Assembly: GCA_937919915.1 (NCBI GenBank)
Contig: CALFOL010000429.1
Span: forward strand, 1-38,295
Direction: 5' to 3'
DNA from: an uncultured Planctomycetaceae bacterium
GTDB lineage: Bacteria > Planctomycetota > Planctomycetia > Planctomycetales > Planctomycetaceae
DNA: 38,295 bases
The notes beneath the pieces were generated by a model. It had not been told where the DNA came from and ran no database searches. It saw only the letters and a list, made by a program, of their open reading frames with translations. Of this stretch, positions 15,886-21,174 are shown in pieces. Every line of letters starts with the position of its first letter. Positions within the stretch are counted from its first letter, which is position 1. The position numbers and the translations under genes are program-made.

Positions 15886-18180
15886 TCAACTCTGGTCCTG
15901 TTGCAGGAGTCGTTTGGCTTCTTTCAATACGAAGTCCGGATCCATGAAGGGTTCGTAGCTGATGTCCTGCCAACGGATCAGGCCGTCCGCATCAATCACG
16001 AACGTGCCGTGCAGTGGCTGTTTTTCGAAGTCGTCATAGCAGCGATAGCTCTTGAAGACGTTCAGTTCCGCATCTGATACCAGCGGAAACGGAAACCCTT
16101 CTTTGAGGTCCTTGTACGCGTCGCCAAGTACCGGCTGAGCGTCTGTACTGATCGCAACAATTTCGAAGCCTGCTGCCTTGAAGGCTTCGGCCTTCGGAGC
16201 GAACTTCTGCAGTTGCTGAGCACAGTGCAGACATCCCGCTCCGAGGTAAAAAACAGCTACCACCGGCTTACCCCGAAACTCAGTCAGGGACCTCTGTTGG
16301 TTCTGCACATCAGCCAGAGACCATTCTGCAGCCGCAACAGGCTGCCAGCGAAGTGGCCCCAGTGCATCCAATGGCGGCCGAGCGCCGATGTCGGCAGGAA
16401 ATTGACGCGACGTCGTCCAGTTTTCCTCCCAGCCCAGCTCTTTTGCGATCGGCGTCAGTCGGCTGAAGGCAGGCGTGCTGAGATCAATTTCTGACGACTG
16501 ATTGCGAAGTTCTTCAAACGCCTTTTTCGCTTCAGGCTTTTTATTGGCTGCCCACAGAGTCTCCACCTGAGCTGCCAGCGGACGCGTTTCGTTTTTGTTG
16601 GTTTGGACGTGATCGGCAATCTTCTTGATGGCGTCGTCAACTTTGCCCGCTTTGATCATTATCGCGACCTGTTCTTCGACGGGAACGCCCGTCGATTTCT
16701 TGAACAAGGCGAGGGCCTCATCGATTTTTCCACTATTGGCCGCTATGCGTCCGTCGATTTCGTCAATCGCTTTTTCGTGACCCTTCACATCGCCCAGCAA
16801 CGTCGCTTCCGCGGCTTTACGCGCTTTCTCGACATCTTTGTCGTTCTTCTTTTCTTTCTGAGCCGTCTGTGCGGCCTTATCGCCAGCGGCCGTACGTTCC
16901 GCCTTCTTCGTATCCAGGTTTGTCTGCAGTTGCAGGCGAATTTCCATCGCTTTGTCCAGTTGTCCTGTAGCAACCAGGGCTGCGGCCAGATAACGGTCAC
17001 GCTTCAGGTCTTCGTTTTTGTCGCCGGACTTTTCCAGATAGGGCGTCTCACAAAGTCGGACAAATTCGGCATGCAGTTCGAATATTCGCAGGACATCCAT
17101 TAACCGCTCGCGGCCATATTTGTAGCTGCCTGATTTATCGATGTCGTTGTACTTCGGATGGCGTGGCATCTGAATCATGTTCTGTGCCAGATCGATGGCG
17201 TCACCAACGCGACCGATGTGCACCATGTTGCGTATGCACCATTCGTTGTTGTGAGCGAAGTTATGAATCTGATCCGGCAGCACCTGATCTTTCATCATAT
17301 GCGCATGATCGACGCGGGCGGAGGCTTCCTGTTGATAGACCGCATCGTGATATCGCTTTAGCCGAGAGTAGATGTGTCCAGGCATGTGCCACATGTGGGC
17401 GATGGAGGGTGCCGCCAGTCCGCACCGAGCGGCAGATTCCAGTGCGAGTTCCGACTTCTTCGTGTCCCAGAGATGAATTCTGTAGTGATGCACGGAATGC
17501 AGTGGTTCACGATCAAGAATATCCTGAATCATCGCATCCACGGCCAGGTAACTCGCCTGTTTGTTGCCATCCCGCCGTGCGGACCACAGGAATTCGCATA
17601 GAAATGCTTTGGCTTCGAGGTCGGCGGGAAACTCGATGACCAGGTCATCGAGTTTGCTGACGTATTTTTCGGACCGCTTGGTTTTGTCTTCGGTACTCTC
17701 CGATTTTGCCTCGGAATATTCGTGAAACGCTTCGATGTACAATCGCTCGCGGCGAGACGTTTTGTCTTTGCGGTCCATTGCTTCCTTGATGAATCCTTTT
17801 GCCCTGGCTTCGCTCTTTCTGTTCGACATCGCCATGCCCCAATAAGCAATCGCACAGTCCGGATCCAGCATGGCAGCCTGGCGGAACGAGCGTTCTGATT
17901 CGAAGTACCAGAAACCATGCAGCTGAGCGACTCCCTGTCGTACGAAAGCTTTGGCCTCATCAGAACTTGATGTCACATCGAATGTCGTCGTGCCCAGGCC
18001 GTCTATCAGATAGGCTGCCTGTCGAGGCCCCTCGTTGAAGACTTCACCGTGCGAGGAATGTCCTTCCGCCGGATCTGCCGCCGCAGAATCTTTCGCATCC
18101 GCTGCGGTGAGGTCAGGAATTGGAACGAACGCGAGGAGCAGCACGGCAGGCAGGAACTGACGGGGAGAAAGGAGGATCAT
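15886..18180 (-). CDS. Secreted TPR-repeat protein with C-terminal AhpC/TSA-type redoxin domain
   Basis: A 764-residue exported protein. The ATG at 18180 is preferred over one at 18255 because it puts a clean signal peptide at the very N-terminus (cleavage after about 25). Residues 70-600 are helical with TPR-like units (for example S-F-R-Q-A-A-M-L-D-P-D-C-A-I-A-Y-W-G) and a charged Lys/Glu/Ala-rich segment at about 425-460. The last 130 residues are a peroxiredoxin/TlpA-like domain: F-R-G-K-P-V-V-A-V-F-Y, then G-A-G-C650-L-H-C653 and a later G-T-F-V-I-D-A-D-G. The CxxC suggests thiol-disulfide chemistry outside the cytoplasm. The TPR part could bind partner proteins, but no partner is shown. 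Confidence 0.85.
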   Translation of the reverse strand: MILLSPRQFLPAVLLLAFVPIPDLTAADAKDSAAADPAEGHSSHGEVFNEGPRQAAYLIDGLGTTTFDVTSSSDEAKAFVRQGVAQLHGFWYFESERSFRQAAMLDPDCAIAYWGMAMSNRKSEARAKGFIKEAMDRKDKTSRRERLYIEAFHEYSEAKSESTEDKTKRSEKYVSKLDDLVIEFPADLEAKAFLCEFLWSARRDGNKQASYLAVDAMIQDILDREPLHSVHHYRIHLWDTKKSELALESAARCGLAAPSIAHMWHMPGHIYSRLKRYHDAVYQQEASARVDHAHMMKDQVLPDQIHNFAHNNEWCIRNMVHIGRVGDAIDLAQNMIQMPRHPKYNDIDKSGSYKYGRERLMDVLRIFELHAEFVRLCETPYLEKSGDKNEDLKRDRYLAAALVATGQLDKAMEIRLQLQTNLDTKKAERTAAGDKAAQTAQKEKKNDKDVEKARKAAEATLLGDVKGHEKAIDEIDGRIAANSGKIDEALALFKKSTGVPVEEQVAIMIKAGKVDDAIKKIADHVQTNKNETRPLAAQVETLWAANKKPEAKKAFEELRNQSSEIDLSTPAFSRLTPIAKELGWEENWTTSRQFPADIGARPPLDALGPLRWQPVAAAEWSLADVQNQQRSLTEFRGKPVVAVFYLGAGCLHCAQQLQKFAPKAEAFKAAGFEIVAISTDAQPVLGDAYKDLKEGFPFPLVSDAELNVFKSYRCYDDFEKQPLHGTFVIDADGLIRWQDISYEPFMDPDFVLKEAKRLLQQDQS

Positions 18181-18378
18181 GTGTATCTCGGGCAAAAGTG
18201 AGAAACTGGTGGCAGGGATGCTATTTTGCCCGGGAGTGAGCGACTCGGCAAGCATCGAGTGAGAATCAGCTGACTTCTTTGCCGGAACGCCGGCCTCATG
18301 ATTGGATGCGGTGCGTTCGTCCGTTAGTCTGCCGACTTACAAATTTCAGTTTCGCTCACGTCTGGTCTGTTTCCACAC

Positions 18379-20458: not shown

Positions 20459-20761
20459 TGCTGCGTCTTCTCCACCGCGTAATTTGAACGTTATGTTCAC
20501 ATCATTGCAGTTCCCTGGGTCCGTGAAAAGTCTGCCAATTCCTTTCGAACCCATGTTTCCTGGGCCGATTGACTGACCCATCGGAAATTTCGGGAGGTCT
20601 CCTTGCCACAGATTGGGAAACAGCCGATTCACGCATTGAAGTGTGCTCGCGCGACCGCGTACAATCTCCGTCGAATACTCTCAGCCGGTGTTTCCGGCAT
20701 TCTGTGGATCACCAGGTGGTGGTTCAATCTAATCAACTCGTTTTCAATTAGGTGGAAGACA

Positions 20762-21094
20762 ATGCGAAAGCAACTGTTGTGCCTGATGTTGGTAGCAGCG
20801 GCCGGATGTGCCGAGCAGCCAGCATCAGCGCCGACGGCATCTGCTACAGTAGATGGCAATACCGTCACCCTCGCGAAGTTCACGTGCGATGCCATGACCT
20901 GAGGCGGATGCCGTGCAACGGTCACCCAGACCTTGCAAGCGCTACCGGGTGTAGCGACCGTGGAAATTGATGCAAACAACCGTACAGCGACTGTTTCCGG
21001 AAAACCTGAAGCATTCGTCGTCGCCGACGCTGTCGAAGCGTTGAAGAAGTGCGGCTTCCCTGCTGACAAAACAGAAGAACTGAGCGGTTCTTAG
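20762..21094 (+). CDS. Candidate selenoprotein: HMA-domain lipoprotein with in-frame TGA (Sec47)
   Basis: Reading through one TGA at 20900-20902 gives an uninterrupted 110-residue protein ending at TAG 21092-21094. AGGTGG sits 7 bp before the ATG. Residues 1-15 are a signal peptide and C16 a probable lipidation site (V-A-A-A-G-C). Residues 30-102 match a heavy-metal-associated (HMA) domain: V-D-G-N-T-V-T-L, A-M-T-U47-G-G-C50, L-P-G-V-A-T-V-E-I-D and A-L-K-K-C97-G-F. TGA occupies exactly the first Cys of the family's M-T-C-x-x-C. A weak hairpin (GCCGT/ACGGT, loop GCA, 20910-20922) begins 7 bases after TGA, where a bacterial SECIS would lie. An extra Cys42 is close by. Alternative: a pseudogene with a nonsense change, though the downstream frame looks fully maintained. 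A strong terminator follows. Confidence 0.72.
20910..20922 (+). promoter_or_regulatory. Possible SECIS-like hairpin after the in-frame TGA
   Basis: GCCGT and ACGGT can pair (one G-U) around a GCA loop, starting 7 bases after the TGA. Two more G-C pairs may form below an internal loop (20906-20907 with 20925-20926). Bacterial SECIS elements lie inside the coding region just after the UGA and are poorly conserved in sequence. The stem is short, so this is only suggestive. Confidence 0.35.
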
Positions 21095-21143
21095 CAGCTC
21101 GCGACAACAACATTCATCTCAACACCTGTCGAGATTGATACAG

Positions 21144-21174
21144 GCTCGGTCAACGTAGTTGGCCGAGCTTTTTT
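21144..21174 (+). terminator. Rho-independent terminator of the candidate selenoprotein gene
   Basis: GCTCGGTCAAC (21144-21154) and GTTGGCCGAGC (21158-21168) form an 11-bp stem with one G-U pair and a GTA loop, followed directly by six Ts. It sits 50 bp after the TAG at 21092-21094. Its position supports a transcript that continues past the internal TGA. Confidence 0.88.

Follow-up and report, generated by a model that had tools for sequence, protein, structure and literature searches.

A predicted selenocysteine-containing HMA lipoprotein of a Planctomycetaceae bacterium and its relatives in the Planctomycetota

The locus

The stretch of DNA analysed here, called the window, comprises 38,295 nucleotides from an uncultured Planctomycetaceae bacterium (contig CALFOL010000429.1 of assembly GCA_937919915.1), the genome of which is represented by 925 contigs with a size of 7.2 Mb and a completeness of 94%. 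On its forward strand lies a gene of 110 codons for a predicted HMA lipoprotein (20762..21094), recognized from the sequence, a Pfam match and homologs, in which a single in-frame TGA occupies codon 47 (20900..20902) and the same frame continues for 63 more codons to a TAG at 21092-21094. The ATG (20762) is preceded at a distance of 6 nt by a Shine-Dalgarno-like AGGTGG (20750..20755), and a hairpin resembling an intrinsic terminator follows the TAG (21142..21170), two such hairpins being found in the region versus 0.9 expected from shuffles. A preliminary description of this DNA had outlined the same frame, from the ribosome site and the lipobox signal to the TGA, the TAG and the terminator, and all of these elements were recovered, the last as a terminator-like hairpin. 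The neighbouring genes encode a lactonase-type propeller protein, an enolase-like protein and tryptophan synthase alpha, among others, and on the opposite strand (15886-18255) lies a gene for a 789-residue protein in which TPR-like repeats are combined with an AhpC-TSA/redoxin domain at the C-terminus. An Rfam scan of the window gave no match.

The product consists of a putative signal peptide joined to an HMA domain through a short linker. The signal peptide (20762..20809) has a hydrophobic N-terminus and a lipobox ending at Cys16, and by reading and alignment the residues GC stand at the lipobox position in all 7 orthologs; the lipobox suggests that the product is an exported lipoprotein held by a lipid anchor. 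When the TGA is read through, the product matches the Pfam HMA family (PF00403) over residues 41-99 with an E value of 1.7e-16 and 60.8 bits (gathering score 24.8), so that the domain spans the TGA. The codon sits where the first Cys of a GMTCxxC loop would be, giving MTUGGC, and the alignment and the HMA match thereby arrive at the placement on the first Cys of M-T-C-x-x-C that had been given before. Three cysteines accompany it: Cys50 (20909..20911), the second metal-site residue of the UxxC motif, which is invariant in the A1 alignment; Cys42 (20885..20887), placed five positions before the TGA codon by the domain alignment; and Cys96 (21047..21049), which alignment and structure model put at the end of helix 2 and which is found in genus-level relatives only.

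Conservation of the in-frame TGA

When 98 relatives were searched, close homologs were found in seven genomes (the window's included), each with a single in-frame stop that is a TGA, and all seven TGAs fall into one column of the alignment. With 170 genomes of the family and an E value below 1e-20 against the A1 profile as the limit, the number of carriers rose to 13, again including the window's genome and each with one TGA; these come from several genera and represent the window species and 12 other species of the family. The TGA column is identical in every close homolog that was aligned. A scan of genome contigs had yielded one ortholog only, and the whole-genome searches found more. A homolog is present in a genome of the same genus (G004), and three other genomes of the genus that are devoid of the UxxC gene (G001, G002 and G007) carry a UxxxU form instead.

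Downstream of the TGA, the substitutions lie mostly at third codon positions, every pair that was compared shows more synonymous than amino-acid change, and dN/dS is below 1 (for example, 0.26 for the window gene versus L013). These comparisons of sequence indicate that the frame 3′ of the TGA is under purifying selection. The expectation that a fixed TGA at this position is unlikely to arise by chance mutation agrees with its recurrence in 13 genomes, in the same column wherever aligned, and neither a different stop codon nor a decayed downstream frame, two of the signs that were to speak against it, was seen in the relatives.

Selenocysteine machinery and decoding of the UGA

All four components of the selenocysteine (Sec) system that the preliminary description proposed to look for are present in the source genome: selA (E 6.5e-128), the C-terminal domain of SelB (E 9.5e-12) within a frame of 658 codons, one clear copy of a tRNA-Sec with the anticodon TCA, and selD (E 2.1e-77), which lies on the same contig as selA and within 1.3 kb of it. 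The selD match (G000:C590:172-1089, locus L098) is part of a 748-codon open frame near selA and is perhaps fused to another domain. SelA was found in 30 of the 31 genomes that carry a UGA form and in 7 of the 19 that were tested among those restricted to Cys forms (Fisher p 4.5e-6).

A long hairpin is predicted for the 51 nt that begin with the UGA in the 7 orthologs, and its apical loop lies about 22-30 nt away from that codon. The loops of bacterial SECIS elements sit at about this distance. In the window the candidate SECIS corresponds to 20900..20950, with the apical stem-loop at approximately 20914-20937. Single-sequence folds were mildly more stable than shuffles (z of -0.5 to -1.4), and the consensus fold contained three pairs with double changes and a slightly unfavourable covariation term (+0.47). 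Since consensus folding alone was unconvincing, a control was used in which the RNA was recoded synonymously, i.e., with the protein kept. Among 37 Sec genes, which are not independent sequences, the 51 nt after the UGA were more stable than their recodings, with a mean z of -0.99, none of the 37 above +1 and a p of 2.5e-8, whereas the 51 nt upstream of the UGA did not differ significantly from theirs (p 0.07). The hairpin loops were also enriched at positions 24-29 relative to the recoded controls. A SECIS-type hairpin directly after the UGA has moderate support from these predictions, which comes from the pooled test rather than from covariation; the folding of this RNA, suggested earlier as a check, gave a significant difference in the pooled recodings and a mild one in single folds, with a slightly unfavourable covariation term.

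With the conserved TGA, the complete Sec machinery and the purifying selection downstream, the gene almost certainly encodes a selenoprotein with Sec at codon 47, as was first proposed. If a suppressor or allo-tRNA inserted Cys or some other amino acid at the UGA, this would fit the Cys that homologs have at this column, but such decoding is very improbable in view of the full Sec machinery with its one clear tRNA-Sec, the strong co-occurrence with SelA and the RNA structure 3′ of the UGA. TGA also terminates ordinary genes in the window, which means that the code is not reassigned throughout; this normal use as a stop would suit a broken HMA gene, i.e., a pseudogene or a sequencing error, an explanation with practically no chance left given the same TGA in 13 genomes of several genera, the selection after it and the intact TAG and terminator.

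A wider set of Sec-HMA domains in Planctomycetota

The search was extended to HMA domains across the Planctomycetota, to which it was confined, and the larger set that emerged had not been foreseen in the preliminary description. A profile of seven rows was used to read the domains from fetched loci, with one mask for all stops, which gave TGA, TAA and TAG an equal chance to align, and with duplicates left out 133 domains were obtained. The column of the first ligand held 52 TGA and the column of the second ligand 13 TGA, with no TAA, TAG or other stop in either; the two ligand columns together therefore contain 65 in-frame stops, all of them TGA, versus 2 TGA and 3 TAG in all other columns combined. 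Loci with TGA were fetched deliberately, and the share of Sec forms is consequently not a frequency. That choice does not explain why TAA and TAG are lacking at the site, as loci containing these two stops had been fetched as well.

The 133 domains divide into UxxC (26), UxxxC (13), UxxxU (8), UxxU (5), CxxC (79) and CxxxC (2) sites, and a lipobox-like signal is found in most Sec forms. At the column of the first ligand the homologs have C or U only, as expected for a metal ligand; the occurrence of both Cys and in-frame TGA here, and of nothing else, answers the search for homologs suggested earlier. In a poorly resolved tree of 127 short domains, the window subfamily falls within a clade of 18 rows that are all Sec (support 98/98). 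The Sec label changes about 13 times on this tree (10-13 in bootstraps, with at least 4 changes forced by well-supported branches), which points to several gains or losses of Sec. The window gene belongs to a broader, unnamed and widespread set of exported Sec-HMA proteins in the Planctomycetota with UxxC, UxxxC, UxxxU and UxxU sites.

Several loci differ from the window gene in their arrangement. In L071, L072, L130, L134, L059 and L074-L076, the metal loop is one residue longer and contains two UGA codons (UxxxU). Two Sec-HMA domains per locus occur in L080, L086 and L082, and in the first two of these both lie in the same frame and may form a single protein that contains at least two Sec. 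Genomes of family f31 (L060, L081, L050 and L043) have a second HMA-like gene with the motif GMDUGQU (UxxU) near a Cys or Sec HMA lipoprotein gene, and these loci look like a pair of Sec-HMA genes; the second protein of L060 had no NCBIfam match at an E value of 1e-5. The Cys forms L034 / L094 (G028) and L035 (G067) have CxxxC, not CxxC, in the HMA domain.

Structure and possible function

In the AlphaFold model, an HMA fold is predicted confidently from approximately residue 32 onwards, with the order beta-alpha-beta-beta-alpha-beta as in HMA domains, and Sec47 is located in the metal loop just before helix 1. The best PDB match of the model is MerP (1osd), followed by Cd-bound HAH1-MNK1, Au-bound GolB and Atx1, and a sequence profile search also yields copper ATPase domains and MerP.

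In the proposed mechanism, the SelA/SelB/SelC/SelD machinery would decode the UGA as Sec under the guidance of the hairpin directly 3′ of it, as comparative evidence indicates, and the lipid-anchored protein would be positioned outside the cytoplasmic membrane, with a single HMA domain that has Sec as its first ligand (MT-U-G-G-C). The selenolate of Sec47 and the thiolate of Cys50 would then bind soft metal ions of the Cu(I), Hg(II) or Ag(I) type. A U-x-x-C site is presumed to bind more tightly than CxxC, and the protein would accordingly trap or carry metal on its own, not as part of a mer uptake operon.

Context bears on this model. MerT was not found in the source genome, which is 94% complete, nor in 10 of the 11 UxxC carriers that were tested; no mer genes were found near the window gene, and 21 loci showed no conserved neighbourhood or operon, with no gene family common to more than two of them. 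The absence of MerT and of shared neighbours makes mercury uptake less likely than a stand-alone, lipid-anchored site that binds soft metals, and without a metal operon as context the choice of metal is a guess. Function as a metal trap or carrier is thus somewhat favoured, and as a whole a Sec-HMA lipoprotein working as a stand-alone soft-metal trap or carrier is the best explanation and a reasonably probable one.

The preliminary description had offered both soft-metal binding and a thiol-selenol switch as possible functions, of which the former is preferred here. The chief rival is a redox function, because the subfamily adds Cys42 and, in part, Cys96. Sec47 and Cys50, with these two residues, would then form a redox pair on the HMA scaffold, and the lipid-anchored protein would operate without metal, as an oxidoreductase of the thiol/selenol type, as a scavenger of peroxide or in electron transfer. 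The majority of catalogued selenoproteins are redox proteins (PMC13188914), and Cys42 appears in 12 of 26 UxxC domains versus 1 of 79 CxxC domains, with Cys96 being added within the genus. The fold, however, is that of HMA and not thioredoxin-like, the conserved GMTxxxC loop is a metal-binding signature, and neither extra cysteine is needed throughout, position 42 being Met in L018 and Cys96 missing in 3 of 7 orthologs, which leaves a redox role rather unlikely. A Sec form of MerP that takes up Hg(II) in partnership with MerT is improbable. MerP is the top structural match, the NCBIfam MerP model is hit with E values of 8e-8 to 5e-12, and MerT/CopZ and MerP selenoproteins have already been reported; the scores of 33-46 bits nevertheless fall below the cut-off of 92.55, the lipobox takes the place of a free periplasmic form, and membership in a mer operon is largely refuted by the missing MerT, insofar as a 94% complete genome allows.

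The metal trap reading can be extended to the phylum. The Planctomycetota may have evolved, repeatedly, a large group of exported Sec-HMA proteins, mostly lipoproteins, with one or two Sec and with two or three residues in the metal loop (UxxC, UxxxC, UxxxU and UxxU). These would trap soft metals with high affinity through their selenolates and provide a selenium-based defence independent of a mer operon, a tentative proposal with somewhat less than an even chance of being right.

Comparison with known systems

Sec in HMA-type proteins is already known and not new as such, and the preliminary description had not anticipated that HMA selenoproteins with other architectures are on record. A UxxC cation ATPase, MerT and a MerP from GOS are among the tabulated heavy-metal proteins with Sec (PMC13188914, PMC2398784, PMC9312934), and NCBIfam holds two HMA-type selenoprotein families, NF041115 (UxxU) and NF045683 (a MerT/CopZ fusion). 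None of the 7 window-type proteins and 10 others of the set reaches any cut-off in NCBIfam release 20, and no exported HMA UxxC family is named in a 2026 list of 119 families. No paper on this lipoprotein family was found in the literature covered, to which the selenoprotein candidates listed with a paper on Porphyra Planctomycetes (PMC4807772) do not belong. Because standard gene calling stops the gene at codon 46, most annotations probably lack these proteins or contain shortened versions of them.

NF041115, a UxxU metal-binding (seleno)protein listed in a review as a "putative mercuric reductase", shares with the window protein a short HMA-type domain with Sec as the first ligand, but has two Sec, while the window protein is a predicted UxxC lipoprotein and scores 41.3 bits against a cut-off of 95; no member above that cut-off was found in 294 Planctomycetota genomes. 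With NF045683 (MerT_CopZ_Se), a MerT/CopZ fusion-like heavy metal transport selenoprotein, only the HMA-like part is shared, the fused MerT-like part being its own, and the window protein, with 110 residues and one HMA domain, scores 26.9 bits against 375. MerP (TIGR02052; PDB 1osd and 1afi) is likewise an exported single HMA domain and the nearest solved fold, but it has CxxC, works with MerT and is without a lipobox; the window protein scores 32.6 bits against 92.55, and no MerT was found in its genome. CopZ and Atx1, the copper chaperones, share the HMA fold and the GMTCxxC loop but are cytoplasmic and have Cys only. Two further cases are set apart by description: the cation-transporting E1-E2 ATPase selenoprotein ABB15669.1, which shares UxxC and is a membrane pump, and two GOS MerP selenoproteins, which share Sec and are uncharacterised metagenome fragments.

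The Sec-HMA proteins of the Planctomycetota are an uncatalogued group within the known HMA-type selenoproteins. If real, they would enlarge the short list of selenoproteins described in this phylum by a widespread group and would put Sec itself in the place of a recognized metal ligand in an extracytoplasmic protein. Their natural variants on one fold, with Cys, one Sec or two Sec and two loop lengths, would lend themselves to the question of why selenium is preferred to sulphur.
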